Shown: positions 5,911 to 64,000 of the stretch, piece after piece
How the letters are laid out: each line of letters starts with the position of its first letter
Position numbering within the stretch: position 1 is the first letter of the stretch
DNA from: Antedon mediterranea
Taxonomy: Eukaryota; Echinodermata; Crinoidea; Comatulida; Antedonidae
Assembly: GCF_964355755.1 (NCBI RefSeq)
Contig: NC_092676.1
Coordinates: 4,942,288 to 5,006,287 of the forward strand
Length of the DNA stretch: 64,000 nt
Direction of reading: 5' to 3'
The notes under the pieces: model-generated
Database searches by the model: none
What the model was told of the DNA's origin: nothing
The model's input: only the letters and a program-made list of their open reading frames with translations
Made by a program: the position numbers and the translations under genes

Positions 5911-6960
5911 ACATATGTGGCTTTTGTTATTTGTTTGCTGTTTGTTTATTTGTTTGATTGCTGTTTGTTTGTCTATTTGTTGTTTGTTTATCTATTTGTT
6001 GTTTGTTTATTTGTTTGTTTGCCATTTGTTTATTTGTTTGTTTGTCTATTTGTTGATTGTCTATTTGTTGTTTGTTTGCTATTTGTTTGTCTATTATTTG
6101 TTTGTTTATTTGTTTGTTTGTCTATTTGTTGTTTGTTTATTTGCTGTTTGTTTGCTATTTGTTTGTCTATTATTTGTTTGTTTATTTGTTTGTTTGTCTA
6201 TTTGTTGTTTGTTTATTTGCTGTTTGTTTGTTGTTTGTTTGTCTATTATTTGTTTGTTTATTTGTTTGTTTGTCTATTTGTTGTTTTTTTTCTGTTTGTT
6301 TGTCTATTTGTTGTTTGTTTATTTGTTTGATTGTTGTTTGTTTGTCTATTTGTTGTTTGTTTGCAGTTTGTTTGTTTGTTGTTTGTTTGTCTATTTGTTG
6401 TTTGTTTACTTTTTTTGTATGTTTGTTGTTTGTTTTCTGTTTTGTTTTTGGCTATTTGTTTGCTGTTTGTTTATGGTTGTTTGTGTGTTTGCTGTTTGTT
6501 TGGCTGCTTGTTTGTTTGTTTGTCTGTTTGGTGTATGGCTGTTTGTTTTGCAGTTTGTTTGCTGTTTGTCTATTTGTTGTTTGTTGTTTGTTTTCTGTTT
6601 TGTTTATGGCTATTTATTTGCTGTTTGTTTATGGTTGTTTGTGTGTTTGCTGTTTTATTTGTCTATTTGTTCGCTGCTTGTTTGCTGTTTGTTTGTATGT
6701 TTGTTTGTTATATGTTTGTTGTTTTGTTTATTTGTTTGTTTGTATGTTTGTTTGTTGTTTGTTTGTCTGTTTGTTTATGGTTGTTTGTTTATTTGTTTGT
6801 CTGCTGTTTGTCTATTTGTTTGTTTATATGTTTGTTTGTTATTTGTTTGCTGTTGTGTTAATGGCTGTATTTTTTATTTGCTATTAGGTTTATGGCTGTT
6901 TATTTGCTTCTTGTTTTAAGGCTGTTTTTAGTTTCGTTTTGTTTATTGGTTTGTTCTTTG
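5911..6960. repeat. TTTG-rich low-complexity array (~1.05 kb)
   Basis: Degenerate mixture of TTTG, ATTTG, CTATTTG and CTGTTTG units over about 1 kb. TTTG-type units contain no stop codon in any + frame, so long overlapping open frames appear (one of 334 codons, Cys/Leu/Phe/Val only). Their composition and simultaneous openness in several frames mark them as artefacts. Confidence 0.9.
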
Positions 6961-8744: not shown

Positions 8745-9990
8745 TCATAGTGTTACTGTGGTGTTATATAAGGTATAGTATTACTTATATTAGTGTTACT
8801 GTGGTGTTATATAAGGTATAGTATTATTTATATTAGTGTTACAGTTATATCTCAGAAGAGCGTTAGTGTAGTACTACACAGGTATTCGTATTACTATCCT
8901 GTGTTAATGCTGTTATATATTTAGGTATTAGTGTTACTGTTATATATGTAGGTATTAGTGTTACTGTTATATATCTATGTATTAGTGTTTCTGTTATATA
9001 GGCCTATATGTATTAGTGTTACTGTTATATATCTATGTATTAGTGTTACTGGTATATATCTAGGTATTAGTGTTTCTCTTATTATATATATAGGCCTATA
9101 AGTATTAGTGTTACTGTTATATATCTAGGTATTAGTGTTACTGTTATATACTGTATCTAGGTATTAGTGTTACTGTTATATATCTAGGTATTAGTGTTAC
9201 TGTTATATATCTAGGTATTAGTGTTACTGTTATATATCTAGGTATTAGTGTTACTGTTATATATCTAGGTATTAGTGTTACTGTTATATATCTAGGTATT
9301 AGTGTTACTGTTATACGTATTAGTGTTCTGTTATTATTATTTATGTATTAGTGTTACTGTTATATATCTAGGTATTAGTGTTACTGTTATATATCTAGGT
9401 ATTAGTGTTACTGTTACATATCTAGGTATTAGTGTTACTGTTATATATCTAGGTATTAGTGTTACTGTTATATATCTAGGTATTAGTGTTACTGTTATAA
9501 GTATTAGTGTTCTGTTATTATTATTTATGTATTAGTGTTACTGTTATATATCTAGGTATTAGTGTTACTGTTATATATCTAGGTATTAGTGTTACTGTTA
9601 CATATCTAGGTATTAGTGTTACTGTTATATATCTAGGTATTAGTGTTACTGGTATATATCTAGGTATTAGTGTTACTGTTATAAGTATTAGTGTTCTGTT
9701 ATTATTATTTATGTATTAGTGTTACTGTTATATATCTAGGTATTAGTGTTACTGTTATATATCTAGGTATTAGTGTTACTGTTACATATCTAGGTATTAG
9801 TGTTACTGTTATATATCTAGGTATTAGTGTTACTGGTATATATCTAGGTATTAGTGTTACTGTTATAAGTATTAGTGTTCTGTTATTATTATTTATGTAT
9901 TAGTGTGACTGTTATAGGTATTAGTGTTCTGTTATATATCTAGGTATTAGTGTTATTAATGTTATAAAAAAAAAATAAAAAAAGTTATTA
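8745..9990. repeat. 27-bp minisatellite with ~184-bp higher-order period
   Basis: The basic unit is about 27 bp (TATTAGTGTTACTG + TTATATATCTAGG). It is irregular in 8745-9110 and regular from about 9110. In 9310-9900 a variant block (TATTAGTGTTCTGTTATTATT) recurs about every 184 bp (near 9312, 9496, 9680, 9864), with five to six 27-bp units between. Because 27 is a multiple of 3, one frame stays open and reads a 9-residue repeat; this is a repeat artefact, not a gene. Confidence 0.92.
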
Positions 9991-24700: not shown

Positions 24701-27118
24701 CATTTTATTTACTGATGTTTTCTAACAGTTTGTTAGTATGTATGAAAAGAAATACTGTACTGTATTGTTTATATCCGAATACTGTATAAACGTATTATGA
24801 AAATTATTGAGGAATAAAAATTCTCTAAATCTCTCCCAGTTACTTGCCTCTGCCTGTGTCTACATCCATGACCTCCATCGCATTTTTTACCCCAGTGGCG
24901 TAACGGCTCTGAGCGCTCACTTGCTAAAGCCATGGGCCCACAGCTACCGGGGTCCATGAGCATTGGAGGAAAAACAGGAATTAAAATTCAGCGTTGGAGA
25001 GCCACTTGATTCCTAAACCAGAGGCCTCATGCCTCTGCGTTACGCCACTGCATATGCCTCTCTATTTTTACCTGCTGGTTTCCTTACAACATAACCAAGT
25101 CATTTCCATCTCCTTGTTTAGCGGATGATGTCATTATAATGAGGTTTTTGTGAAGCTCTGTTATTTAGTTGCGCCATCTGATCTTCAGAATTGTTCTTCT
25201 TATATCAATTAACTAATTTATGCAAAATCATCTCCTTATTTTTCAGGTATACAACGGAACAACGTTGGTCCATTTTATAGACGGGTTCGATACAGCAAAG
25301 AGTAACTGGATGCGCCACGTCCAGCCAGCTCCAGGCATGACCCACCTGCAGAACGTTGTCGCTTGCCAACATGGAACTGAAATCTTCTTCTACACCACTC
25401 GTTGTATTTTAGAAGGAGAGCAACTTTTCGTCTGGTATTGTCGAGAATTCAGCGAACGATTGAAATGGAAAATTCAGAGCCCTCTGAACTCTAATGGTAG
25501 GCACATTAATACTATTTATATGAGTGTATACGATTGGTTTTTTTCGTATCATCACGTGTCGTGCATTATTTTGAAGGTTTATTGCACGCTCATGTTTTGA
25601 GAAATACATTTACGCGGGAGGCTGGTGAATAATGCGCGACCGAAATCATCTGTGGGGTGCACCCACAGATTGTAGCATCTAAAACTAAAAAACAATCAAG
25701 TGTAGGCATATGTTAAAACTAATATTTAACCTCACTTATTTGTATTCTCTTGAACAGGTAATAACACGAGTTTTGTAGGTAAACCGCTACAAGTTGGAAT
25801 TGGCAAGAACAACGATTTCGTCGAAGCACTTGATCTTCGTAACCATGTTGAACGTCAGCCTAAACGACCGAACTTTGACACGGCAATATACAATCACTTT
25901 AACACTATGAGCCTTACAGATAAATTCACCGGCTTTACGTATGGCCGCGGCGATTTTACGCAACGCAAGTCCTTCACTACACAAAGAACTTCGCGTGTTT
26001 CTTCTCTACCACCGGTTAACATCAAACGCGAACCACTATCACCAATTGCAAAGGCGCGAAGCGTCAGTCCAACGTTTTCCGCAGACTATGTACACCAAAT
26101 GCACTTTAATAGCAGAACGAACTTTACTTCACATCACATCAGACAACCAATACCGTACGTCTTACCACACTTCCCATCTGCTTATATGCAAGAGCAATCA
26201 AAGATGTATTTCAACAAAACGCCAGAAATGAGTAGAAACAATCAAAATCTTTACATAGATATCCCAAAAATGATTCCCACTCCTCCAGAGGTCACTCCAG
26301 TCCATCAGGGTATTTCAAATAACAAAAGTCCAACTGATTTTCCCGCCAGTCCAGATAAAAATCTAAAAAAGAGATCGAAATGTGTAAATCCATTTTATGG
26401 GCACAAGTCGCTACCGTATCCTTTAAGGAAAGAACAGGGCAAGATTGTATACGAATGCAACGTTTGTACAAAAGTGTTTGGCCAACTTTCCAATCTTAAA
26501 GTTCACTTAAGAGTACATAGTGGTGAGCGACCATTCACATGTGATGTTTGCAGAAAGGGTTTTACACAGTATGCTCACCTGCAGAAGCACAATCTTGTCC
26601 ACACCGGGGAAAAGCCATTCACTTGTGATCACTGCGGAAAGAGATTCAGCAGTACAAGTAACTTAAAAACACACATGCGTTTACACAGTGGAGAGAAACC
26701 GTTCAACTGTTCAAAATGCAACTTAAAATTTACACAGAGAGTGCATCTACATCTACACGATCGGCAGCATGAAGGAAATGGCCATAACACCGATGTACAC
26801 CGTAAAAAGTTTATAGACAGTGACTGTACCATATTGGACCAGAGTCCTGATTACAACCCCGTGAGTCAGTTAACAGATTTAGACGATTCAACCAATCTTG
26901 ATGACGCGCAGTCTATCACAGAAAGATATTGCTCAGATTCAAAACAATCAATGTACGCGGAAAAATCACGTGATTCAAGTATCGATAGCTTTACGGATCT
27001 TGAAGGGTCAAATAACTCACCTACCCAAGACATTCACGTAAAAGAGTTTATCATGTTTGAAGAGAAAGAACACGAAGGTCATGCTTTGCCAAAACCTACC
27101 ATTCCAACTGAAACGTAG
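21706..27118 (+). CDS. PRDM1: PRDM1 / Blimp-1 transcriptional repressor, 4 coding exons, 632 aa
   Basis: PR/SET-domain C2H2 zinc-finger factor; the family represses transcription in the nucleus and directs cell fate. Coding exons 21706-21873, 23035-23154, 25247-25496 and 25758-27118, all with GT/AG borders and compatible phases, total 1899 nt (632 aa plus stop; human PRDM1 is about 825 aa). The first ATG follows an in-frame TAG just upstream. The PR domain spans about residues 43-163, with [25 protein letters not shown] and [12 protein letters not shown] low-complexity linker follows, then [14 protein letters not shown] directly before four C2H2 fingers (about 411-520) with [15 protein letters not shown] and [15 protein letters not shown], close to PRDM1 fingers 1-4. 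The fifth finger of vertebrate PRDM1 is not visible. Introns carry MITEs. A further 5' noncoding exon cannot be excluded. The identity is secure from the PR domain plus the diagnostic fingers. Confidence 0.95.
21902..22050. mobile_element. MITE family B, diverged copy in PRDM1 intron 1
   Basis: Begins AAAGCTTGGTTTACACTAGG and keeps GACCAATCACAACGC and CTTGCGTTGCGCTTACC. The right terminus is degraded (TCGTCGAGTCTAT). Confidence 0.65.
22088..22212. repeat. 40-bp tandem repeat with CGCGCGTAC and ATGATCAT, ~3 copies
   Basis: Copies begin with ACGCGCGCGTAC at 22088, 22128 and 22168, with a truncated fourth at about 22199. Each has a CGATCATCG- or TGATCATCG-type palindrome in the middle. It lies in PRDM1 intron 1, about 215 bp after exon 1. 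Confidence 0.85.
23584..23756. mobile_element. MITE family B copy in PRDM1 intron 2
   Basis: Inverted termini TGGTGGTTCCAACTAGAACG and CGTCCTAGGGAACCA, with GCAACGCAAGG, CGTGATTGGTCAA and CGTCCTTGCGTTGCG inside. Confidence 0.75.
24225..24405. mobile_element. MITE-like family C copy in PRDM1 intron 2
   Basis: Starts GGCGTAACGGTAATGAGCGCTCAC and ends CTCTGCGTTACGC, giving inverted GCGTAACG/CGTTACGC termini. It shares AAAAACAGGCATTAAAAT with copies at 24892-25051 and 44640-44812. Noncoding. Confidence 0.7.
24892..25051. mobile_element. MITE-like family C copy in PRDM1 intron 2
   Basis: Inverted termini CAGTGGCGTAACGG and CTGCGTTACGCCACTG. The interior (GAGCGCTCACTTGC, AAAAACAGGAATTAAAAT, GAGGCCTCATGCCTC) matches the copy 670 bp upstream. 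Confidence 0.8.
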
Positions 27119-29936: not shown

Positions 29937-30186
29937 TTATTAGTTATCCGCTTGGTATACCAAGCGGATAACTCCTTGTTATTGTATGAGATCAACAGTT
30001 TTTTTCTGTATTATTAGTTATCCGCTTAGTAGCGGATAACTCCTTGTAATCGTCCTGTTTCATCATATTTTTTTTTTTTTTGGTTATCCGCACTTGGCGG
30101 ATAACCTCTTGTTATTGTCAGGATCTTTTTTTTTTTTTTTTTGGTTATCCGCACTTGGCGGATAACCCCTTGTTATTGTCAGGATC
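29937..30186. repeat. Four tandem palindromic 5' modules of the rolling-circle-type array
   Basis: Four copies (about 29937, 30010, 30080, 30142) each contain a hairpin built on TTATCCGC and GCGGATAAC (for example GGTTATCCGCACTTGGCGGATAACC), followed by CCTTGTTATTGTC-like sequence and poly-T. The GCGGATAACC half recurs subterminally at the 3' end of the large units at 31321 and 32484 (shortened in the other two), forming an asymmetric inverted repeat between the two ends of the array. Confidence 0.75.
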
Positions 30187-31362
30187 TTTTTTTTATTTTT
30201 CTTTTTCTCTTTTTTTTTCTATTTTCTTCTTTCTTTCCACAAATTTTGTTGCTAGTGTATCTCTAAATCTTCTTAACATAACATTGTATAACTTTATCAG
30301 AAGATTGACCTCTATCTGAAGATGTCGTAATAAGGTTTTCAGTCGTGTCCGAGTTGCGCAGCGTAAGTTACGCGCGATTTTATGAATTTCAATGATTGAT
30401 CATAGAATAAAACCTAAAAGTTTGTTTGTATTGAAACTTGGTGAAAATTTAAGTCATATAATGCGCAAACTTTCTATGGATTAAAAATTGCATGCTTCAC
30501 AAAAAGTTACGCGCGCACGCGCGTTTGAAATTTCAAAATGCGAAAAATCAATTTCTAATCAACTTTCTACGCGTTTCATGTCATTTTGAGCATTTCAAAA
30601 ATTCCAACGCGTGCGCAATTTTTTTACGCGCGCGTGCGCACGTAGCGCAAAAACATCATTTTTTTGCTTGATTTTTGTTTTTCCTGTCTTTTTTAGTAAA
30701 TTTACCAACTTTCAAACAATTTCAACTTAAAATCACGTCATACGAGCACGTAGAATTAAACAATTTACGCGCATTTTTTATGAAAAAGTTCAAAAATTTG
30801 TCAAAATTATGCCTTTTTTTAAACAGTCATAGATTCTAAACTACGTGGTGAACTTTTTTAAAATTACATATTCTGAATGTAGATGAGTTGTAGATATCGA
30901 ATCATGCATCGATTTGGCTAACCGGACATTGTGACGTCATCGTATGGCCACACGAATATCAAAGATAGGATTTTTGTCTCTTTCGTCATTGCTCATCACA
31001 TTTAATAGAGCGCATCTCCACTTATCCGTATTCCATTTTCCCCCATTTTTATATATTGTCTAGGTCAATCAATTATCTTTCGATTGATTTACCATTTTTA
31101 AAATTGTTATGACGTCATCATGTCCAAAAGCGTCAATAACTTTGGTCACTTATTTTCACCTATTCTACACTGTATGTAGTACGTATACAGTATAATAGTG
31201 TATACCGTATATACTTAAACGTGACACAAAATAGAGGGCGCACTAACATTTTTTTCAGTGGCATAATCGTTTTTCTGCACGCAATATTCTAACGTATGAC
31301 GTGCACGTGGCTTTTGCGCTGCGGATAACCTAACTCGTCCGTAGTGACGAGTTCAAATCTAG
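30187..31362 (+). mobile_element. Helitron-like non-autonomous unit 1 (~1.17 kb)
   Basis: Noncoding unit starting near TCTTCTTTCTTTCC. It contains GTAAGTTACGCGCGATTTTATG, GCGCACGCGCG, CGTCATACGAGCACGTAGAATT and two TGACGTCA octamers. The 3' end has GCGGATAACC, then an 8-bp perfect hairpin (AACTCGTC / GACGAGTT, 31332-31353), then CTAG at 31359-31362 followed by T. A hairpin a few bases before CTRR-T is the known 3' terminus of Helitrons; here it is repeated in four units. No Rep/helicase coding is present, so it would be non-autonomous. The exact 5' end is uncertain. Confidence 0.65.
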
Positions 31363-32525
31363 TTTTTTTTTTTTTTTTTTCTTTCTTATTCTTCTTTCTT
31401 TCCCAGAATTTTGTTGCGCGTATATCTCTAAATCTTCTCAACATAACATTTTGTAACTTTATCAGAAGATTGATCTCTATCTGAATATGTCGTAATAAGG
31501 TTTTCGGTACCGTTTGAGTTGCGCAGCGTAAGTTACGCGCGATTTTATGAATTTCGCGTATTTAATTTAGATCGAAAACTATTAAACCATTTAAATTGAA
31601 ACTTGGCAAAAGTTTAATTTATATCATGCGCTAACTTTCTATGGAGAGAAAATGGCATGTTTCACAGAAAGTTACGCGCGCACGCGCGTTTAAAATTTCA
31701 AAATGGGAAAAATCAATTTCTAATCAACTTTCTACGCGTTTCATGTCATTTTGAGCATTTCAAAAATTCCCACGCGTGCGCAATTTTTTTACGCGCACGT
31801 GCGCACGTAGCGCAAAAACATCATTTTTTTGCTTGATTTTTGTTTTTACTGTCTTTTTTAGAAAATTTACCAACTTTCAAACAATTTCGACTTAAAATCA
31901 CGTCATACGAGCACGTAGAATTAAACAATTTACGCGCATTTTTGATGAAAAAGTTCAAAAATTTGTCAAAATTATGCCTTTTTTTAAACAATCATAGATT
32001 CTAAACTACGTAGTGAACTTTTTTATAATTACATATTCTGTTAGTAGATTAGTTGCAGATATCAAATCATGCATCAATATGGCTAACCGGACATTGTGAC
32101 GTCATCGTATGACCACTCGAATATAAAATAAATGATTTTTGTCTCTTTCCTCGTAGCTTGTCACATTTAATATAGCGCATCTCCACTTATTTGTATTCCA
32201 TTTCCCCCCATTTTTTTATGTTGTCTAGCTCTATCAATTATCTTTCGGACGATTCACCATTTTCAAAATTGTGATGACGTCATCATGTTCAAAAGCGTCA
32301 ATAACTTTGGTCACTTATTTTCACCTATTCTGCACTGTATGTAGTACGTATACAGTATATAGTGTATACCGTATATACTCAGACGTGACGAAAAATAGAG
32401 AGCGCACTGAAATTGTTTCAATGACTTAATCGTTTTTCTGCGCGCAATATTTTAACGTATGACGTGCGCGTGGCCTTTGCGCTGCGGATAACCTAACTCG
32501 TCCGTAGTGACGAGTTCAAATCTAG
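31363..32525 (+). mobile_element. Helitron-like non-autonomous unit 2 (~1.16 kb)
   Basis: Direct repeat of unit 1, collinear throughout (same TACGCGCGATTTTATGAATTTC, CATGTCATTTTGAGCATTTC and ATGTAGTACGTATACAGTAT segments). It ends in the same hairpin (32495-32516) and CTAG (32522-32525). It lacks the palindromic 5' module and joins directly to unit 1 after a T-rich run. Confidence 0.65.
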
Positions 32526-34049
32526 TTCTGTATTATACTTCTTTCCTTCTGTCATTTTTGTGCGTCGCGTTTCTCTAAAACGTGTAAACAGAACATATCG
32601 TAACTTTGTCAACATATCGACATTTACGTGAACTTGTGCACCTCCTATTTTTGAATGACGTCAGAGTTGCGCAACGTGACTTACGCGCGATTTTATGAAT
32701 TTCAATGATTGATCATAGACTAAAAACCAAACATAATTTTGTTTTGACACTTTGTGAAAATTTAAGTCACATCAAGCGCAAACTTTCTATGGATTAAAAA
32801 TAGCATGTTTCACAAAAAGTTACGCGCGCACGCGCGTTTAAAATTTTAGAGTGCGAAAACTCAACTTCTAATCAACTTTCTATGCGTTTCATGTCATTTT
32901 GAGCATGTCAAAAATTCCCACGCGCGCGAAACTTTTTACGCACGCGGTTCACACGTAGCGTTAAAAACATATTTTTTTCGCGTGATTTATGTTTTTTCAG
33001 CCTTTTATAGTAATGTTACCAACTTTTAAACAATTTCGACTTAAAATTACGTCATACGAGCACGTCGAATTAAATAATTTGCACGCGTTTCTGGTGAAAA
33101 AGTTCAAAAATTCGTCAAAATTATGCCTATTTTTAAACAGTCATAGATTCTAAACTACATGGAGAACTTTTTTTTAATTACATATTCTGGAAGTTGATGA
33201 GTTGTAGATATCGAATCATGCATTAATATGGCTAACCGGACATTGTGCCATCATCGTATGGCCACGCGAATATAAAATATAGGATTTTTGTCTCTTTCGT
33301 CATAGCTCATCACATTTAATAGAGCGCATCTCCACTTATTCGTTGTCCATTTTCAGCCCGATTTTAATATATTCTAGGACAATCAACTATCTTTTGCATG
33401 AATTAAAATTTTTTTAATTTTTTTAACGTCATCATGCCTAAAAATTTAAATTACATTGGTCATTAATTTCATCTTTACAGTAAATTTTAATCTGTTATAG
33501 CTCGTAAGAATAAAATGTGATAATCACGATTAAAACGTTTTCAGGAAGCTATTGTATTGTAGATACAAAATCATGTGAAAATTTTGCCAATCGAATGTTG
33601 TGACGTCATCATATGGCCAGTTAAATACAAAAAGTCGTATTTTCATCTTTTGCGTTATATTTCATTACATTTAAAAGAGCGCGCATCAATATTTCACGTA
33701 TTCAAATTTCTTCTACACGTTAATATGTTGTTGCTGAGATAATTTCATTCTGAAATTTCTACTTTTGCATTTCATTTAAAAACCGTCAAGATGTCAAAAA
33801 TTACAATAAAATACGGGTCCCGTAATTTCACCTATTTTACACTGTTTGTGATATGTATACAGATTGTACTGTGTATACTATGTATATGACACAAAATAAC
33901 AGAATTCAGAAATAACAACATATCATATTCTTCAGTTCAGGTCATAATGCCTTAATATTTTTCTGTGTGCAATATTCTAACGTATGACGTGCATGTGGCG
34001 TTTGTCGAGCGGATAACTAACTCGTCAAAGTGACGAGTTTCATGTCTAG
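32526..34049 (+). mobile_element. Helitron-like non-autonomous unit 3 (~1.52 kb, long form)
   Basis: Same order of segments as units 1-2 but about 360 bp longer. The extra block contains TAATCACGATTAAAACGTTTTC and a second GTGACGTCATCATATGGCCAG. The terminal hairpin is AACTCGTCA / TGACGAGTT (34019-34039), followed by CTAG at 34046-34049. Confidence 0.65.
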
Positions 34050-35571
34050 TTCTTCTTTCCATCCTTCCTTTTTGTGGATCGCGTTTCTCTAAAATGTGTA
34101 AACATAACATTTCATAACTTTGACAACATATGGGTATTTACGTGAAGTTGTGCACCTCCTATTTTTGAATGACGTCATAGTTGCGCAACGTAACTTACGC
34201 GCAATTTTATGAATTTCAATGATTGATCATAGATTAAAAACTAAAAGTCATTTAGTATTGACACTTTGACAAAATTTAAGTCATATCAGGGGCAAACTTT
34301 CTAAGGATTAAAAATGGCATGTTTCACAAGAAGTTACGCGCGCACGCGCATTTAAAATTTCAAAATGCGCAAAATTAATTTCTAATCAACTTTTTATGCG
34401 TTTCTTGTCATTTTGAGCATGTCAAAAATTCCCACGGGCGCGCAATTTTTTACGCACGCGGTGCGCACGTAGCGTTAAAAACATATTTTTTTCCCTTGAA
34501 TCATATTTTTCAAGCCTTTCCTAGTAATTTTGAAAACAATTTAGACCTTTTCAAATTTAAATAACGCCATACGAACACGTTGAATTAAACATTTCATGCG
34601 CGTTTTTTATGAAAAAGCTTAAAAAATCGTCAAAATTATGTCTTTTTTTAAACAGTCATAGTTTCTAAAGTAAACCGTGAACCGTTTATTTTTATTACAA
34701 AATCTAGAAGTTGATGAGTTGTAGATATCGGATCATGCATCGATAAGGCTAAAAAAACATTGTGACGTCATCGTATGGCCACACGAATGTAAAATATAGG
34801 ATTTTTGTCTCTTTCGTTATTGCTCATCACATTCAATGGAGCGCATCACGCTTATCTGTATTCCTTTTTCTCCTACATTTATATATTGTGTAGGTCAATC
34901 AACTTTCTTTAGCATGAGATAAAAATATTTTAATTTTTATGACGTCATCATGCCAAAAAATTTTAATTACGTGGGTCATTAATTTCATCTTTACAGTAAA
35001 TTTTAATCTGTAATAGCTCGTAAGAATAAAATGTGATAATCACGATTAAAACGTTTTATGGAAGCTATTGGATTGTAGATACGAATTCATGTAAACATTT
35101 TGCCAATCGGATGTTGTGACGTCATCATATGGCCAGTTGAATAAAAAAAGTCGTATTTTCATATTTTGCGTAATAGTTCATCACATTTAAAAGGGTGCGC
35201 ATCTATATTTTACGTATTCAAATTTCTTCTACACGTTAATATGTTGTTCCTGAGATAATTTCCTTCTGAAATTGCTATCTAAGTGTTTCATTTTGATACC
35301 GTCGCCATGTTAAAAATTGGAATAAATGGCGGGTCCCGTAATTTCACCTATTCTACACTGCATGTAATATGTATACAGATTATACTGTTTGCATGTATAC
35401 TATATGACACAAAATTGAAAGAATTCAGCACTAACAGCATATCATATTCTTCAGTTCTTGTCATAATGCCATAATCTTTACCTGTGTGCAATATTCCAAC
35501 GTAAGACGTGCACGTGGCGTTTGTCGTGGTGCGGATAACTAACTCGTCAAAGTGACGAGTTTCATGTCTAG
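34050..35571 (+). mobile_element. Helitron-like non-autonomous unit 4 (~1.52 kb, long form)
   Basis: Closest to unit 3, including the extra block. The hairpin is AACTCGTCA / TGACGAGTT (35541-35561), and CTAG (35568-35571) closes the array. After it the sequence changes to unrelated DNA. Confidence 0.65.
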
Positions 35572-35602
35572 TTCTGATTTAGTCTATAAACGATGGCCAA
35601 CG

Positions 35603-35769
35603 GAGACATTTATATATATATATATATATGCACTGATGAAGGGCTAGTGTTGCCCGAAAGCTCTGCTAACTTTTCTGGCTGTTTACAAAAAGCGAAAAGC
35701 TATATCAAAACGATAAAATAAACAGCCAGAAAAGTTAGCAGAGCTTTCTGGCAACCCTAGCCCTTCATC

Positions 35770-35801
<32 letters not shown>

Positions 35802-35807
35802 TGTCTC
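35603..35807. mobile_element. Palindromic element with hammerhead-like cores in both arms
   Basis: Arms 35603-35685 and 35719-35807 are inverted copies (GAGACATTTATATA, TA repeat, GCACTGATGAAGGGCTAG, GAAAGCTCTGCTAAC, TTTTCTGGCTGTTTA). The + arm holds CTGATGA (35633-35639), a GGGC/GCCC stem, GAAA (35656-35659) and a GC-TCT-GC mini stem III followed by TA. This matches the conserved hammerhead ribozyme core with the very short stem III known from Penelope-like retroelements. The minus arm (35734-35771) has one changed stem II base. I see no convincing stem I, so activity is doubtful. Confidence 0.5.
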
Positions 35808-35874
35808 ATTGTGTAATGTGGTCCAAACGACCAGTTTTGTTTCTTGTCTTATGTGCGGAAACATTACTAAATAT
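35808..35874. repeat. Inverted repeat, left arm
   Basis: A 67-bp segment (ATTGTGTAATGTGGTCC ... GCGGAAACATTACTAAATAT) that recurs nearly unchanged in reverse orientation at 36417-36483. It directly abuts the hammerhead-like palindrome and is probably part of the same element. Confidence 0.8.
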
Positions 35875-36069
35875 ATATAAAAGCAAGGGAGTAGGCTGGG
35901 AAGAGCTGGGAGATGCGTGAGGTGCGGACGACGAGGGCGAGCACGCATAATAGACGCACTCTATGAATAAAGTGAAATACTATTTCTACGCTAAAGTTCA
36001 TTAGGAATGCATGAGATGCCCTCTAATGAACAAAGTCTGCCATTAAGACTTATGTTTTTACTACTAACC

Positions 36070-39000
36070 CTACGCATAGAAACCCATTAGAAACACTCCG
36101 ACACCCATCACAATGACAGCGTTTACTAGAGAAAACTTTTTCCAAAAAGGATCCTCCTCGATGGATGTCAACAAGGCTTCGTCCTTTTGGGTCGAGTCTT
36201 TGGACGAGTCCGAAAATCCACAAAACCAACGCCATGTTCTGGTCAGAAATTGTACTTCTGAATCTTCTGCTTCTGCGTGAAAATGAGAATACACGTGATA
36301 TATTATTGATTCTTATATTTACTTATTGAATGGCAAGAGAAAACCATTCTTATCCATGGAAGAGTGAAATTAATCCGAGAAAACAAAGATTGATTTGCTC
36401 AGAATACATTTTAAAAATATTTAGTAATGTTTCCGCACATAAGACAAGAAACAAAACTGGTCGTTTGGATCACATTACACAATCAGCCGGTTTTCGCGAA
36501 TGATGGAAATTACCATCGCTGTTGAGGAGACGCTGAGAAACTGTATTTTAGAAAAGTAGGAGAATGGCGGCAAAAGAACCCTCGTGATACACAAGGAGCA
36601 AGCAGGATTGACAAATTCAAGGGACGAAAGCTTAAATTAAAATTACTTGGAATTACTATACTGTAAAATACCTTCTCCTGATTTTTCTTGATTGTTTTCT
36701 TCGAGAGCCGGAGTTTCCATTTCTACCTCGTCCTGGTTATTCAACCGGTCGTCGGACCTTTTATAACGAGTTGCCCAAGTCTTTCCAATCACCTAAGAGA
36801 TAACGAATTTTTTTAACGAGGATGACCATTTTACAAACTAATTAATGTTTAAACTTCATAAATTGAAAAAAATGTTTTTTTTATATGTTGACACTTTCTA
36901 AAACCCTGTATACACTATTAAACATTATGTGACAAAAATGTGATGTGCCCATATATGGACATGATGATGTTATATCACCACCATATTTAAGCATATTATC
37001 ACTACCATATTTTCGTCAAACTAGTTTGATAGTGCAGATAGAGCTTAACAGGAAGATTATAAAATGACGGAAATGTACTACAACATCCGTTAAAGAAAAA
37101 AAGAACACCATACGAAAGTTTGTTTTACGGAAAGTTGAAAGTACGGTCAGAGATAAAAACACCAATGTATTTTGTATATAACTCGTAACGAGAAGATAGA
37201 CAACTTGTTACAGCAGCAGGTTAGGCCTGTACGCTGAGTCGTAAATTTGGTGTTTTTTTCTGGACGTCTTGGGCAGAACTCATGAAAAATTCATGAGATT
37301 AATCATTGCATAAATTAGGACAGGGGCGCATGCGATATTTCTTTTCGTACATAAGCTGGGGACCCTTCATGAAACGTCACAAAATAAACATGAATATTCA
37401 ATAGTCATTATGGTGTGACGTAAGAATAATTTATCTAACTACAATTCACTAATGCAATCTCTATCCGTCGAGCCGTCTGTGTAGTCGAGTGGATAAGACT
37501 ATAGACTTTACATGTCTATGTATGGGGTTCGAATCCCATGAGCAACTTCTTTTTACTATATAGTGAGAGAGAGAGATTATTTAGATGGTTAGGTTTAGTC
37601 ATATTCAGGAAGTAGTTTGGCTATCTTTCACAAAAGGTGTCCCCAACTTATGTACGAAAAATAAAATCGCGGGCCGGGCCGCATTACAAGCATGGACACG
37701 CAACACATCGACATCTTTAAAGTGTTTTGTTTAAACTGCCTAGTTAATACTTACTATTGATTTAAGTCGGCTATCTTGTAACTTACGTAATCTGTGTTTA
37801 TTTTTTAGTCTTAAGGCTAACTCAGACAGCGTAGTACGCGACTAGGCCCGACGAGCCCGTCTTGTCTGGACTTGACTCGTACGTGCTGTTGAATCCAGAC
37901 GAGACGGGTCATCGTGAGATAGCGTCGGGGGTAGTTTTTAAGTCGTCGGGAGAACTTTAAACATGTTTATTTTTTTCTCGACGAGACGACTCGTTTGCTG
38001 GGTGATGACCAATCACAAGCGTTTAAATTATGACGGCAGGTCACAAGGGGAAAAGTTTTGATCGAGCGCGAACAAAGAAGTAGCTATGTAATTGTTCTAA
38101 AAGAAAAAAACTTACGTAAGTTTCAGGCAGAGGTTTAGTCAATAAACTAATGACAATGGTACAGATGATAGACACGGCTCCTACGAGGCAGTTGTAGTAG
38201 AGGTAATGTATCTGGTAAACGATCGTTGGTCGGATGTCGACCTCTCCACATAGAGGCACTGGGTACACAATGTCCAGAACCATTCGTGTCACACCCATTG
38301 CGATTCCGATGACCAAACCCCAGAAAGCTCCCTAGAAATAAATTATTATCTTCCTCACTCATTTCATTATTGCATTATTTATTCGGTCTATTTCAGTATA
38401 TACATAACAACAAAAAACTTAAATTGGGGAGACCAGGGTCAACCTAAGTGAACTTAATCACTGTAGCTGAGCCGGTTGACCCAACCCCAACGTCAGTAAG
38501 ATATTGTCACCGTCATTAACATCGTTAAATTTTACAGTAGACCACCTCTTATTCAGGACCAAATTAAGAGGGTCCCCTGAAGAGGTATCTGTAGTGTTAA
38601 AACATACATGTATTATTGTCCCGCGTTCGTTTCACGGGAAGTGACTAAGGCTATAAATAAGGTATTTTTAATAGGTTTAGGAAAAATGCAAAATACATTT
38701 TTATGACTGTAACTTTCTGCAATTGATAGTTTTATTGTTATGTGAAACGTGTTGGCCTTCCAAAAAATTGCAATTTTTTTGTGACCTAGGTCAACGGTCA
38801 ATTCAGTGACCCCAAAAAGTTAACTGGCGTCCTGGGACAGTAAATTTCCCCTTACGGGATATGGGCCACGTCTTCAAAGGGTAGGGGTGTCCCAACGGAG
38901 AAATAATACACGAGCATTGTTAGTTTAGGTTCTAGTCGAAGTTTTGACTTAATATTAGTAAAAAGACAAATATTTTGGCACATATGGCGTTTCATACTTG

Positions 39001-45000: not shown

Positions 45001-48000
45001 CATTCCATTCAAACGCTTCTTGGATGAAAACAGCTCCAGCAAATATATCCACCTAAAATGAAATTAATAATACATTATTAAATTAAATGCAAAAGAAAAT
45101 TTAGTTGGTGAAGAGCGTTAAATAACCGTGACTAATTCTCTGTAATGCGCATGCGCGAACAACTTCATGTACATACATGTTCTATCACAATCAACAACCC
45201 TTCCTCGTCTCCATCCCAGCCCCCGCCCCCTCCCACCCTAAACTACACGCACTCCTCGCAGTATACTTTTCATTAGTATTTATACATTAGTAATGAAACT
45301 TCCCTTTTGTATTTGAGATCCATACATCCATAAATCTTTAGTAAACTTACCGATATTTTTGTAAATATGTAAAGAAATAAAGCAATTATTGACATGGTGA
45401 TCCGAAGTCGTTGACCGCCATAACGTTTCTTCAAATATTCTGGCATCGTGTACACACCGGAAGAGACGTAGACTGGCACGAATATCCAACCAAGCGGAAT
45501 TATTGCAAATATGGACTGAAAAAAAAATTGTACAAAAATGTTTTAATCCTTAGATTTCTCGATAGTGATATTCAAAGCTAAGGATAGGCATGTCGATCAG
45601 GGGTAATGATTATGGATCCAAACCCGACTAAAAAAATTAAACGGGTCAGGACAACTACCCCTCGGACAACTAGACTACCCTCTGACAACTACCCCTTGGA
45701 CAACTACCCTCTGACAACTACCCCTCGGACAACTACCTCTCGGACAACAACCTCTCGGACAACTACCCCTCGGACAACACCCCTCGGACAACTACCCTCT
45801 GACAACTACCCCTCGGACAACTACCCCTCGGACAACTACCCCTCGGACAACTACCTCTCGGACAACTACCTCTCGGAAAACTACCCCCAGACAACTACCC
45901 TTCGGACAACTACCTCTCGGATAACTACCCTTCGGACAACTACCCTTCGGACAACTACCTCTCGGACAACTACCCTCGTACAACTACCCCCGGACAACTA
46001 CCACCGGACAACTACCTCTCGAACAACTACCTCTCGAACAACTACCCCTCGAACAACTACCCAAGGACAACCTCTCGGACAACTACCCCTAGAACTACCC
46101 CCGGACAACTACCCTTAGACAACTACCCCCGGACAACTACCTCTCGGAAAACTACCCCTCGAACAACTACCCAAGGACAACCTCTCGGACAACTACCCCT
46201 AGAACTACCCCTGGACAACTACCATTAGAACTATCCCATGGTATTTCATATTAAAAGATTGCTTAAGTATGTATCTTTTACTACAAAATCATAGTTTTCA
46301 CTGTGATTTTGTTTTTTAAATAGGCCTCTTTTAAATTTGCTAATCATCTACGTACATTCACATTTTTTGATTAATTGGAATAATTTCGAATTACATGATA
46401 TTTAAAGCAAGCAGAAATAAAGTTCAGGATGTAAACCTACACCATAGGAAAAGCATACAACGTTTGAAAAAAAGTTATACCATAATTTCGTAAGCTCCAA
46501 CTGCAATACCCGAAGCAGCACCTGTACCAGCCAGCCCTATGAAATGCCCGGTTCCGATGTTACTAGCAAACAGTGATGCTCCGACAGGCCACCATAACAT
46601 ACTTCGTCCGGCCAAAAAGTAGCCTTTGGCATGACTACGGTTTGTTCGGTACATTGACTGTAAAAGAAATTTGCAATGTCGTAATTTCAGGAAAAAAAAG
46701 GATAATGATTATTATTGCTTTTTTAAATTTCGCCCCTCAGCAGAAAGTCAAACTATTAATATTATGATGATGTTGTTTTATTTTATCAAAGAAACAAACA
46801 AAAAACTACGATGAATATCCAATCCTTACCTTTCGAAGATTACTACTTTTTTTCTTTTATGGTTCATCACCACCTTTATTCATTCAATGTTTCATTACAT
46901 AATTTCTAACATTTTCTACCTTTTTAAATTATTTTCTGTTTTTTTCTTATTGATATACTTTTAACCTTTAGTATCATACCATTCATATAAAGTATTTACT
47001 TCTTAACGTTCTTTTTTTGTTAAATCCTCTATTTACAATAACCAATTGTATATTAATTAAAATACAAGTCACTATTTTCTCTCTTTTATACACAAGGGAG
47101 CAGTTAAAATAATAGATTTGACCCTAAAGGTGACTGGAAACAGGCACTTTCCATCAATCAATACAGTGTCCCTTTGGAAGACGGAAGAAAAAACCAGATC
47201 GTGGGACTCGAGCTTTAGGTGTACACTGATAGTATTACCCTGCACACACATCCACATAGTGTACACACATGTAAACGTACACATTCATTTATAGGCCTAA
47301 TTATTATTTTCACCATAAATTGTTTTAACGTATTTATTAATTTATTTATAATTATTATAAACACTTTTAAGATTACTACATTATCGTTTGAATACATCAT
47401 ATTCATCGGATAATAATAATAATATATTCGAATCATAGGATAATAATAATAATATTCATAGGATAAATATTAGCCTCTTTTTCAATAGGCCAACTCATAT
47501 TATATTAAAGTCATTGTTAGCTAGCTCATCAATAATATTTACTAACCGTATACGGCCTCCTATACGTGTTTGTTGCAAACAGGTAGTAAAGAAGATGCTA
47601 AAGTGCAATTTTATTTGTATTTCCAAAAGTGAAAATAAATATACAGTAACGCTGTATATTGTGTATATGTGCAGGTTTTCATAATAAATAGGTTATCTTC
47701 TACCTCTATGACGGTCTGATTTTTTACCATTGACCGGCTCTCAAAACAAAATTAATGTGTTTTGAGAGCTAGTTGAAGTGTTATTTATATATAATCATAA
47801 TAATTTTAACTGAAGAAAACTTTAAAATCAGCGATTTCTCACTGTACTATACGGCCAATTGAAAACTATAGACGTGTAGCATTCTGTGTTCCTGTAGTTT
47901 TATCTCTATATACTCGTTATTTATTTGACCTCTGTCTCTACCACGGTCCACGGCATCTTGAACAATTGTGAACATTCAAGGCCAAGTAGTGCTCAGAAAA

Positions 48001-48925: not shown

Positions 48926-50077
48926 GTTTCCGGTTCAGTGTTTTATGGGTAATACGATTTTCCATCTGTGACTGAGGTAAGGTCAAGTTCCTATATTGTT
49001 AACATGTAATATAGAGGCTATAATGAAATAAAATGGAACAGAGGCAGAAACAGAATGTTTCAGAAAAAATGATGAGGCTTATAATGAGCACATAAACACT
49101 TTCCATAAAGATAAAAACCATTGTATTTGATCACTATTTTATTATGGATGATAGAAGTTTCTATGTACAATTTTGAATAAGTTTTCGTGAAATAGCTTGG
49201 TGGATAATGCCGATCATTTTGAATGATAAGACAAAATTGAAATACCTCTAGTTTTCTAGAAATTTCACTCTTATTTATCTGGTTCGCGGTCAATGCCTAT
49301 AGAAAATTGTTTATAAAATACGTGTTATTCCAGGTACAGTCAGTGGGGAGGAGTAGAAGATGTAGATGAAGAATTGTTATCTCCATGTTTGTAAAACGAA
49401 AAATAAATTTAAACCTGAACACGTCGATACTCATTGCAATGAAACCGACTGTCGTCCTTTTGAGCTGTCTTATTTTATACAATATACTATTAATCGGAAA
49501 GGGAAAACATACTATTTCGGAGAGAGCGCACCACATATTTATTAATTATTTATTTCGTTTTCTTTCAGTAGGGTAGCCCTCTTAGAAATAATATAAAAAC
49601 TGCTCTTCCGATCCCGAGGGGTCCTACGACATGCACATTTCGTTTTCTTATAGTAGTGTAGCCCTCTCAATCAGTAATAATATAACAAAGTTTATGATGT
49701 CGATGCGTGTCCCTTTTCACTTCTTTGCTCGTTTTTTAACCTTCAAATGCTCGGTATAACTATAAGAAGAGTTCACATCCCTTAGATCTGCCTTTTAATG
49801 ATATGTTAAATGCATGCAACGTTTAGTACTTTTGTACAGTATTACAGCTCGAAACTCCACGAAATTAATACAGTACAATATCGGCTCTCAACAATTTAAT
49901 TCTTGTATTTTTCAGTTTTTGTAGCACTGTAGCTTATACCTGTTTGACCTAGAAATCAACAACTATAAACACCTTGGTGGGATGTCCCTAATGGGTCATT
50001 AATCTTCCATTCTCAATGACACACTTCCACCACATTCACAACTATACCATTCCCTACATACTTTGCAACAGGAAACA
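48926..50077. other. Unique stretch between two palindromic arrays
   Basis: About 1.15 kb of AT-rich sequence with no recognised gene. A short duplicated piece (TTCGTTTTCTTNNAGTAGNGTAGCCCTCT) occurs at 49554-49585 and 49640-49670. Confidence 0.4.
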
Positions 50078-50650
50078 AAACTAAGATATCTCTATTAATA
50101 GAGATATCTCTATTAATAGAGATATCTCTATTAATAGAGATATCTCTATTAATAGAGATATCTCTATTAATAGAGATATCTTAGTTTGTAATAGAGATAT
50201 CTTAGTTTTTAATAGAGATATCTCTATTAATAGAGATATCTCTATTAACTAAGATATCTCTATTAAAAACTAAGATATCTCTATTTAAAACTAAGATATC
50301 TTAGTTTTTAATAGAGATATCTCTATTAATAGAGATATCCTTATTAATAGAGATATCTCTATTTAAAACTAAGATATCTTAGTTTTTAATAGAGATATCT
50401 TAGTTTTTAATAGAGATATCTTAGTTTTAAATAGAGATATCTCTGTTAATAGAGATATCTCTATTTAAAACTAAGATATCTTAGTTTTTAATAGAGATAT
50501 CTTAGTTTTTAATAGAGATATCTTAGTTTTAAATAGAGATATCTCTGTTAATAGAGATATCTCTATTAATAGAGATATCTCTATTTAAAACTAAGATATC
50601 TCTATTTAAAACTAAGATATCTCTATTAAAAACTAAGATATCTCTATTGC
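50078..50650. repeat. Palindromic GATATC satellite, array 2
   Basis: Same two modules as 48690-48925, about 33 GATATC cores over 570 bp. Sub-blocks such as TTAGTTTTAAATAGAGATATCTCTGTTAATAGAG are duplicated, indicating block-wise expansion. Confidence 0.92.
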
Positions 50651-54226: not shown

Positions 54227-56243
54227 GGGTCTGTCACGATAAATATGGTCCGGGGCCAAAATCGGTCCGGCCGGACCAGTTTTGGCTCTAAAATTGTGGC
54301 CAAAAGCAGATATATATTAGTAAGTTATCTTGTCGGATAAATACTATAAATAAATGTATTTTATCTAAAAACATGACTTAGGTGTTCACTCATATTTCGG
54401 CCTGCCACACACTCACATGAACGGGTATGAGACGCTGATATTGCCAGCTAGATTTTATTTATGATTGAGGCCTTTTTCATTCCTCAGCCTAATTAATATT
54501 GGATAATTGTTTTATAATAATTGTATTGAATTGATATATTGATTGATTAATCATAAATAATTAATAAATTAAATTGTTTTTAACATCATGGGGAAACGAA
54601 GATGTTAAAAAAGAACAAAATGGATTAAAAACAGGTAGAGATACATATTATATTGTATACAAAAAGCCTAACAATTAGTACTAATTGTTGATGAGTTACT
54701 ACTAATAATGATAATAAAAAAAACAGGCTTAATTTATAATATTAAAATAACAAATAAAACCCCGTAGTGTTTGTCAGCAGCGTTTGATACAGTTGATCAC
54801 CAAAGACTGATAACCCGTCTGAGAAATCGCATTGGCATAAATGGTGTTGCTCTTAACTGGTTCCAGTCATATCTTACAGGAAGCTAGTCTGTATCAATGA
54901 TGCATTCTCAGATGAAGCTTGCCTGGAATATGGTGTACCACAGGGGTCAGTAATTGGGCCTGGCCAGTTTTCCATTTATAAGCTTCCCCTTGGTGACATT
55001 ATTCGCAAACACAGTCTACATTTCCATTTCTATGCAGATGATACACAGATTTATGTGTCAGTAAATCCAGTGCAAAGGGATGTTGCTGCAGCAATCAGTA
55101 AGATGGAAGCCTGTATAGAAGATGTTCGCAATTGGATGACAACAAATTACCTAAAGTTGAATGATGGAAAGACAGAGTTTATTATCGTCGGGTCTAAATG
55201 TAACATCTCCAAAATCAACATCACACATATCAGAATCGGAAACTCTAACATCGCTCCCTCATCGGTGGTCCGGAATCTGGGAATCATGCTGGATAGTAAT
55301 CTCACTATGGAAGCACAAATAACAACTGTATCCAAAGCAGCATGCATATCGATTAGGAACCTTGGTCGTATTCGCGGTAATCTTAACGAGAAAACAGCTG
55401 AATTGATTGTACACTCATTTGTCACTTCTAAAATTGACATTGGTAATGCCTTGTTGTTTGGCATACCAAAATCTCAAATACAACGTTTGCAGCGCTTGCA
55501 AAATATGGCAGCTAGAATTGTAACTTATACAAAATCAAACGCTCACATAACTCCTGTCCTGATGGATTTGCATTGGTTGCCTGTTCAACAACGTATTAAG
55601 TACAAACTTGCGTTGTTTGTATTCAAGATCCTAAATGACAGTGCTCCTGCTTATTTATCTGACCTTGTGGATCGTTACGAATCATCCCGCAGAGGCCTAC
55701 GATCATTGTCACAAAACCTTCTTCAAGAGCGTAGAGCGAAAAATCAGTGGGGTCAGAGATCTTTTTACGTTGCGGCCGCAAGTGTATGGAACAGCTTACC
55801 AGCAACAGTTAAATGCTCAACTAGTCTAAACAGTTTCAAGACCAACCTAAAGACGTCGCTATTCGCTGATGTCCTTGCACGTTGTTAATGCACAAAGCGC
55901 CATGAGCGCCACATGGGTGGAGGATACCGGCGCTATATAAGTTTTCATTTATTATTATTATTAATATAATGACTAATCCTGGCCTTTTTTTAATGATATT
56001 GATATATACATTATGACTCATTTTGCGCACCATATATTTGTAAGACCGGACCATATTTGGCGGCCAAAAACAGTCCTACTGCCCGGACCGATTTTATCCA
56101 GGCCGGACCAGTTTTGGCGGCCAAAATTGTTCCGGCCGGACAGGTTTTGGCAGCCATAAATGGTCCCCCGGACTGATTTTGGCAGCCAAAACTGGTCCGC
56201 CGGACCGATTTTGGCCCGGACTGATTTTGGTGTGACAGGTCCC
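54227..56243. mobile_element. TIR element with CCGGACC repeats, split by a LINE
   Basis: Left end GGGTCTGTCAC (54227), right end GTGACAGGTCCC (56243). Inner flanks on both sides carry repeats of CCGGACCAGTTTTGGC and GCCAAAACTGG type (54250-54308; 56045-56230). The LINE remnant at 54770-55968 lies between, so the LINE most likely inserted into the TIR element. Confidence 0.6.
54770..55968 (+). pseudogene. CR1-superfamily LINE reverse transcriptase, 5'-truncated remnant
   Basis: Starts inside the RT domain at [10 protein letters not shown] (about 54775), with [16 protein letters not shown], then a frameshift/stop near 54883. It resumes with YGVPQGSVIGP and FYADDTQIY, the RT catalytic box. A 277-codon open frame (55055-55888) carries NWMTTNYLKLN, VRNLGIMLDS and HWLPVQQRIKYKLALFVFKIL, typical of the C-terminal half of CR1/L2/Rex-type RTs. 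The 3' tail is GGCGCTATATAAGTTTTC plus (TTA)n. 5' truncation and a frameshift mean it is dead. Confidence 0.85.
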
Positions 56244-63635: not shown

Positions 63636-63639
63636 GTAA

Positions 63640-64000
63640 TCCGTTATAACGAATTAGTAATTCGTTTGAACAGATTAATAATTCGTTTGAACGGATTAAT
63701 AATCTGTTAATTACTAATTTGTTTAAATGGATTACTAATTTGTTCAAACGGATTACTAATCCGTTCAAACGAATTACTAATTTGTTTAAACGGATTACCA
63801 ATTCGTTCAAACGAATTACTAATTTGTTTAAACGGATTAGTAATCCGTTCAAACGAATTACTAATTCATTCAAACGAATTAGTAATCCGTTTAAACGAAT
63901 TAATAATTTGTTTAAACAAATTAATAATTTGTTTAATTTGTTTAAACGGATTATTAATCTGTTTGAACAAATTAGTAATTCGTTTGAACGAATTAGTAAT
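63640..64000. repeat. Palindromic 21-bp satellite running off the window
   Basis: Repeats of AATTCGTTTGAACGAATTAGT with interchangeable halves (CGTTTGAACG, GTTTAAAC, AATTAGTAATT, AATTACTAATT). Each unit holds two overlapping palindromes. The array continues past 64000. The minus-strand open frame here (63604-63873) is the repeat translated. Confidence 0.9.

Follow-up and report, generated by a model that had tools for sequence, protein, structure and literature searches.

Same-orientation Helentron-type elements nested four deep in the crinoid Antedon mediterranea, and their relation to large arrays of the same family

HINEs (DINE-1-like elements) are described as carrying a palindromic subterminal inverted repeat (subTIR) 2–4 nt from the 5′ end, with an inverted copy near the 3′ end and a 3′ palindrome 8–35 bp from that end; they favour T-rich targets, and their partner elements, the Helentrons, encode a Rep/helicase with a C-terminal endonuclease (PMC4067079). 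In this study, we analysed a 64,000-nucleotide stretch of the Antedon mediterranea genome (NC_092676.1, C7:4942288-5006287; hereafter the window), in which four copies of one transposon family occupy positions 29940–35571. The anatomy of this family is largely that of the Helentron/HINE group as presented in PMC4067079.

Helentrons are reported to insert at TT, and the Antedon family has the ends 5′TT...CTAG3′, a combination termed Helitron-like in the same article (PMC4067079). The proto-Helentron-Pi of Phytophthora infestans shares with it the 5′TT, the 3′CTAG and a Helentron-like Rep/helicase; it inserts between A and T, and 7 of 8 non-self left flanks in Antedon end in A if TT is counted with the element. 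As characterized there, the proto-Helentron is without an endonuclease domain, whereas an 18-kb Antedon element described below has an Exo_endo_phos match. Judged from its sequence, the Antedon family thus has proto-Helentron-like ends, yet its coding relative carries an endonuclease match. Cg_HINE of the Pacific oyster has the subTIR, the complementary inverted repeat, a microsatellite, the 3′ palindrome and T-rich targets in common with it, but the tandem repeats reported for Cg_HINE are internal to each element (PMC7492417), while in Antedon whole elements are stacked.

In bats and silkworm, tandem Helitrons were interpreted as the outcome of replication past the terminator (PMC4067079), and plant and bat arrays are cited in support of the rolling circle (PMC5876387). 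Helitrons are also said to prefer insertion near other Helitrons (PMC12477314). The multiple 5′ termini of FoHeli in Fusarium were ascribed to self-insertion, as here, and a tandem triple in Metarhizium is presented as undecided between 5′-end insertion and a rolling-circle origin (PMC5148889). Compared with these two cases, the Antedon nest is four deep and settled by an uninterrupted copy, and an array on contig C11 extends over about 130 kb. For a maize pair of abutting Helitrons with unlike sequences, consecutive insertion was proposed, similar to what we propose for Antedon (PMC2267711); the maize case concerns canonical Helitrons and one pair, whereas 20 and 45 pairs were tested here. 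Among titles and abstract openings, with subscription journals mostly outside the search, we found no test of Helentron arrays by neighbour similarity, which is not proof of absence.

Nested copies at the locus

The initial annotation had described four collinear units, each ending in a perfect 8–9 bp hairpin followed 5–6 bases later by CTAG and T, and all four were found (Table 1). Their 3′ signature, GCGGATAAC(C/T)..AACTCGTC(n)GACGAGTT(5–6 nt)CTAG|T, occurs in four copies in the window; the hairpin AACTCGTC...GACGAGTT averages 0.00 copies in shuffled sequence (n = 100). The units have the same polarity, with a single outer flank on either side of the nest, are 81.5–91% identical in pairwise alignment and measure 1.2 or 1.5 kb after the heads. 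The arrangement is not, however, the head-to-tail array that had been suggested. Four palindromic 5′ heads, GTTATCCGC(n)GCGGATAAC, are stacked at a spacing of 61–74 bp before all the bodies, and in units 2–4 no head follows the preceding CTAG. The order of heads (H) and tails (T) in the window is HHHHTTTT, which is balanced. The GTTATCCGC/GCGGATAAC motif also stands once, subterminally, 5′ of each 3′ tail, so that the asymmetric inverted repeat noted earlier is correct as to its asymmetry but not as one pair: there are four heads and one 3′ copy per tail.

This order indicates four serial self-insertions and not a read-through array, the outermost element being the oldest. Past each CTAG, the sequence picks up again the element that was broken off at the corresponding head. 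We therefore read the locus, with high confidence, as four members of a single non-autonomous HINE (Helentron-type) family, all in the same orientation, with D nested in C, C in B and B in A, each in a T-rich tract. The first head block ends ..TTTTTTTCTGTATTA and the DNA past the tail of the third unit continues TTCTTCTTTCC; the second head block halts in a T-run and the DNA past the tail of the second unit reads TTCTGTATTATACTTCTTTCC. An uninterrupted B-type copy on contig C6 (L012) holds the T-run and TTCTGTATTATACTTC in one piece. Its alignment to element B of the window crosses the C-in-B junction, spans 1425 columns, opens 2 gaps and shows 97.9% identity, a figure obtained with a joined B that included two extra bases belonging to element C (the exact B gives 97.8%); L012 is truncated by the end of its locus and covers 1418 of the 1590 bases of B. 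Bases 1–1413 of A align with the same copy in a single stretch across the junction (84.1% over 1429 columns). Once D is removed, C (1–1224) aligns with bases 1–1219 of the solitary copy L041 at 91.0%, again in one alignment across the junction, and D itself (1–1222) matches those bases end to end at 90.6%. With all inserts taken out, D is 1222 bp long, C 1224 bp, B 1590 bp and A 1596 bp. The types of heads and tails are in mirror order: the first two heads, ..AACT, match the 3′ copies of units 4 and 3 (GCGGATAACT), and the last two, ..AACC, match those of units 2 and 1.

Two observations weigh against the nested order. The match of head types is weak when taken alone, being satisfied by 4 of the 24 possible pairings, and the T-runs vary in length, which leaves the exact junction base within a run ambiguous.

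The initial annotation had suggested that replication read through the terminator. Had the terminator been missed, the resulting concatemer would carry several 3′ ends behind a single 5′ end, which agrees with the uniform polarity of the units, with the single outer flank on each side and with the literature account of tandem Helitrons (PMC4067079). Four heads stacked at one end would nevertheless need a separate origin, the units differ by 9–18% and in size, and the DNA past each CTAG continues the interrupted element, a continuity that the uninterrupted L012 copy sets against this explanation; we consider it highly improbable at this locus. Alternatively, the units could stem from a single element through unequal crossing-over or segmental duplication, and the heads from slippage. 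Local block duplication does exist in the C11 array, where the same spacing pattern occurs at 13533299-13538210 and 13547051-13551962, yet duplication leaves unexplained the mirror-ordered head and tail types, the inserts of one-element length (1222 bp for D; 1203–1228 bp for 16 of the 22 nested inserts listed by a parse described below) and the junctions that match uninterrupted copies. Such an origin likewise has very little probability.

Table 1. Parts of the four nested elements in the window (all positions refer to the window)
Element and part	Positions	Strand	Head block (palindrome start)	3′ hairpin	Features
A (outermost), 5′ part	29940..30013	+	29942-29973 (29943)		TT, palindromic subTIR AGTTATCCGC..GCGGATAACT, T-rich tract; cut by B
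B, 5′ part	30014..30079	+	30016-30041 (30017)		AGTTATCCGC..GCGGATAACT; cut by C in T tract
C, 5′ part	30080..30140	+	30082-30106 (30083)		GGTTATCCGC..GCGGATAACC; cut by D in T tract
D (innermost), complete	30141..31362	+	30143-30167 (30144)	31332-31353	1222 bp; CTAG 31359-31362, then T
C, remaining body and 3′ end	31363..32525	+		32495-32516	ends in CTAG, then T
B, remaining body and 3′ end	32526..34049	+		34019-34039	ends in CTAG, then T
A, remaining body and 3′ end	34050..35571	+		35541-35561	ends in CTAG, then T; right flank starts TTCTGATT

Adjoining the nest, at 35608–35796, lies a 78-nt inverted repeat with arms that are 96% complementary and a 33-nt spacer. One arm contains CTGATGA-stem-GAAA, which we take to resemble the hammerhead ribozyme core of Penelope-like elements. 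No Rfam hammerhead match was obtained in 35560–36520 at E values up to 1, and nothing reached the Rfam gathering level across the window; low-threshold matches at about 35610–35794 are long hairpins that hit microRNA models with scores far under gathering, and they were set aside. Elsewhere in the window, positions 25217–27118 hold exons of an apparent PRDM-type gene (PRDM2_PR, 2.3e-23, a PR/SET match, followed by C2H2 zinc fingers), 54857–55888 hold a fragment with a reverse transcriptase match (RVT_1, 1.2e-10), and long minisatellite arrays are found at 5923–6859, 8910–9955, 45649–46223, 50077–50648 and 63637–64000.

Termini, insertion sites and a coding relative

The assembly (354 Mb, 18 contigs) was searched with 81 bp of one 3′ end, which gave 1444 first-look candidates. 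The best 40 of the 1444 were scored; all 40 matched, and the match stops at query base 77–81, the CTAG end being base 76. The flank counts cover the window together with four array blocks and another nine loci. A tail was defined by hairpin plus CTAG, hence the tail count tests the following T alone, and a head was accepted when the palindrome was followed by CTTGTTATTG or CTTGTAATCG. All 148 tails are followed by T, in agreement with the CTAG|T boundary proposed in the initial annotation, and all 101 filtered heads have TT directly before them. The base before this TT is G in 66, T in 26 and A in 9 heads, most of which are self-insertions; in the non-self left flanks, judged by eye, it is A in 7 of 8, provided that TT is counted as part of the element. 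At the A–B junction, an exact comparison of lengths, also made by eye, agrees with TT as the first two bases of the element, and on that count the 5′ palindrome begins 2 nt in. A scan of viral contigs for a 3′-end pattern found nothing.

The fourth head folds at −10.6 kcal/mol (z −9.1). For the 3′ hairpin the z scores are −4.1 and −2.6, and in the latter case 4 of 200 shuffled sequences form an equally stable fold. The 3′ stem of 8–9 bp ends 9–10 nt before the CTAG end, which in the C/D type is one nucleotide short of the canonical 10–12. The 3′ subterminal copy begins 41–42 nt and ends 32–33 nt before the 3′ end, and whether it falls within the distance of about 38–60 bp given for Helentrons/HINEs depends on the measure. 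The inverted repeat is asymmetric (2 nt against 32–33 nt from the ends), and no duplication was seen in the L012 comparison or at the A–B junction, where the T-run masks the exact base; the terminal inverted repeats and target-site duplications typical of cut-and-paste elements were thus not encountered.

The sequence downstream was classified for 174 tails (4 in the window, 126 in array blocks and 44 in 24 dispersed loci; flanks under 60 bp were dropped). The tail is followed by an exact head in 74, by a T-run and then a head in 7, by the family's own 5′ T tract in 52, by the start of a headless form termed J3 in 28, by own body in 2 and by no own sequence in 11. Flanks mapping to the interior of the element number 54, of which 51 lie at positions 40–89, the T tract, and one at the very start; none of 65 lies on the element's minus strand. 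The two own-body flanks (L007 and L008) lie at about position 200, where the solitary copy has an adjacent T10 run. These two loci (C9:17775819 and 17259700) share 99.97% identity over 3078 bp at a separation of about 0.5 Mb, which may reflect either a recent duplication or an artefact of assembly. The preference for the T tract has to be read with the sample in mind: copies were chosen by 3′-end similarity and come largely from arrays, so that the 51 of 54 is not a random sample of the genome, and the 174 tails contain recent duplicates.

A relative of the window elements with coding capacity lies within the C11 array and extends from a head to a tail (C11:13478875-13497128, minus strand, 18,254 bp). 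Identity to D and C is 89–91% over its first 0.92 kb and about 90% over its last 138 bp, which include the tail. With the Rep-helicase matches given below, it is the kind of relative with the same 3′ end that the initial annotation had suggested looking for. Exact GTTATCCGC and GCGGATAAC occur in it at its ends only. A stop-free frame of 3050 codons (C11:13485105-13494254), on the strand opposite to the termini, matches Helitron_like_N (PF14214, 3.9e-37), PIF1 (7.9e-30) and Exo_endo_phos (4.9e-9). It contains PHVH, YVIGY and GGAGTGKS, which are presumably the HUH motif, the two tyrosines and the Walker A motif, respectively. The first half of the frame (L025:5105-10000) also matches DUF6570 (1.7e-20), Herpes_teg_N (3.2e-8) and OTU (8.8e-8). 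Open reading frames that run in reverse are known in some Helentrons and Helitron2 (PMC5148889). A second coding copy (L035, C8:800003-803931) has two overlapping frames and reaches the edge of its block. As the 18-kb element shares the ends of C and D, these two appear to derive from an endonuclease-bearing Helentron by internal deletion.

The assignment made at first, to the Helitron or Helentron/HINE elements, is borne out by the terminal anatomy, by the T after every CTAG examined and by the coding relative with the same ends, and membership at the Helentron/HINE level is supported. The family shows a coding relative with Rep, helicase and C-terminal endonuclease matches, the subTIR, the 3′ palindrome and a T-rich or TT target. 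As to canonical Helitrons (Helitron1), the 3′ CTRR and hairpin are present, but TT takes the place of the 5′ TC.

Large arrays and headless copies

On the minus strand of C11 (13.44–13.58 Mb), 71 heads and 90 tails, without a single plus-strand tail, fill about 130 kb with related junctions, the commonest of which, CTAG|TTGGTTATCC, accounts for 49 of the 90 tails. A related subfamily with heads GGTTATCCGCAACGAAGTTGCAGGATAACC and tails about 1.6 kb apart lies in the same array (L027–L028, C11:13504707-13510839, minus strand). Among the 174 classified tails, 74 of the 81 tail-then-head junctions are exact (CTAG|TTGG). This is what an integrated rolling-circle concatemer or a circle with joined ends would give, and joined-end amplicons are known for the related FoHeli1 (PMC5148889). 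A rival reading of the exact arrays outside the window is the integration of multimeric circles or rolling-circle concatemers.

Neighbouring units provide the means to weigh it. Among 69 complete units, the 20 adjacent pairs have a median identity of 0.891; pairs from one block that are not neighbours reach 0.894, and pairs drawn from different loci 0.893. In none of the 20 pairs is the neighbour the closest relative, and the median closest relative is 98.8% identical. In a second test, which kept 134 of 149 bodies and dropped the 15 more distant ones, median distances were 0.107 for 45 exact-junction neighbours, 0.103 for 17 J3 neighbours and 0.102 for all pairs. The nearest relative lies in the own block for 64 of the 134 bodies, and the nearest on another contig is at a median distance of 0.037. 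Furthermore, 3 of the 74 exact junctions connect different types. Neighbours that are no more alike than random copies speak against rolling-circle concatemers and in favour of self-targeted insertion; most array neighbours look like independent arrivals, and an origin of the exact arrays from concatemers or circles seems unlikely to us. Old concatemers may, on the other hand, have been blurred by divergence and conversion.

Several observations do not fit self-targeted nesting in its simple form. The neighbours joined through the T tract (32 pairs) are slightly closer than all pairs (median 0.093 versus 0.102, P about 0.006), and a minor local component is possible. Tails exceed heads in all four array blocks (90/71 in C11, 9/2 in C8a, 7/5 in C8b and 19/14 in C7), so that balanced nesting fails to explain every junction there; J3 copies (13, 0, 1 and 4, respectively) and block edges account for this excess in part. 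Parsing heads and tails as parentheses recovered 25 nested inserts but left headless tails (19 in C11, 5 in C8b and 6 in C7) and unclosed heads (3 in C8b and 1 in C7).

The J3 copies are headless and start TATTTATTTC. When their start was searched as TATTTATTTCTTTC (up to 5 substitutions in 30), all 27 occurrences in the sequences examined directly abut the CTAG of another copy. Distances between J3 bodies are not correlated with those between the bodies upstream (Mantel r −0.05, p 0.50, n = 23), nor are they when the upstream body is taken segment by segment (n = 18), where r lies between −0.10 and 0.19 and p is at least 0.097. These tests are of limited weight, as within one body the first quarter is itself unlinked to the later ones (r 0.09, −0.21 and −0.40), and this patchy linkage is a sign of some mosaicism or of alignment trouble. 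A composite of two bodies mobilized together, with the inner terminator bypassed, was tried as an explanation for the constant J3 junction and rejected, the upstream and downstream bodies being unlinked in the Mantel tests. With moderate confidence, we suggest from these junctions that J3 starts reflect targeting of the resident 3′ end.

These observations can be combined into a model of how the family multiplies. The elements begin TT(A/G)GTTATCCGC, end in the hairpin and CTAG, and integrate before a T; at the window locus B, C and D each entered the T-rich tract of the resident, 61–74 bp inside its 5′ end. Because the T-run target lies on one strand, inserts are co-oriented and the nest mimics a head-to-tail array. 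Transposition would probably depend on the protein encoded by the autonomous 18-kb element, a Rep (HUH, two tyrosines)-helicase-endonuclease, and pass through a single-stranded or circular intermediate. Long arrays of exact tail|head junctions may grow mainly through self-targeting, new copies landing exactly at the terminus of a resident. Tentatively, and with more doubt than belief, the element's own termini could be the integration sites: Rep would nick the resident after CTAG (or before TTGG), an unrelated copy would be joined, and arrays of more than 100 kb would arise via independent arrivals, the J3 copies being fully dependent on this process.

The two readings of tandem rolling-circle transposons are separable in Antedon, at the window locus through the uninterrupted copy and in the large arrays through unlike neighbours. 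If self-targeting is true, satellite-like DNA can arise from a rolling-circle transposon without any concatemer, and if the own termini are the targets, the 3′ end of one copy serves as the 5′ end of the next. The 18-kb relative, with its proto-Helentron-like ends and endonuclease match, bears on the origin of the endonuclease-bearing lineage.

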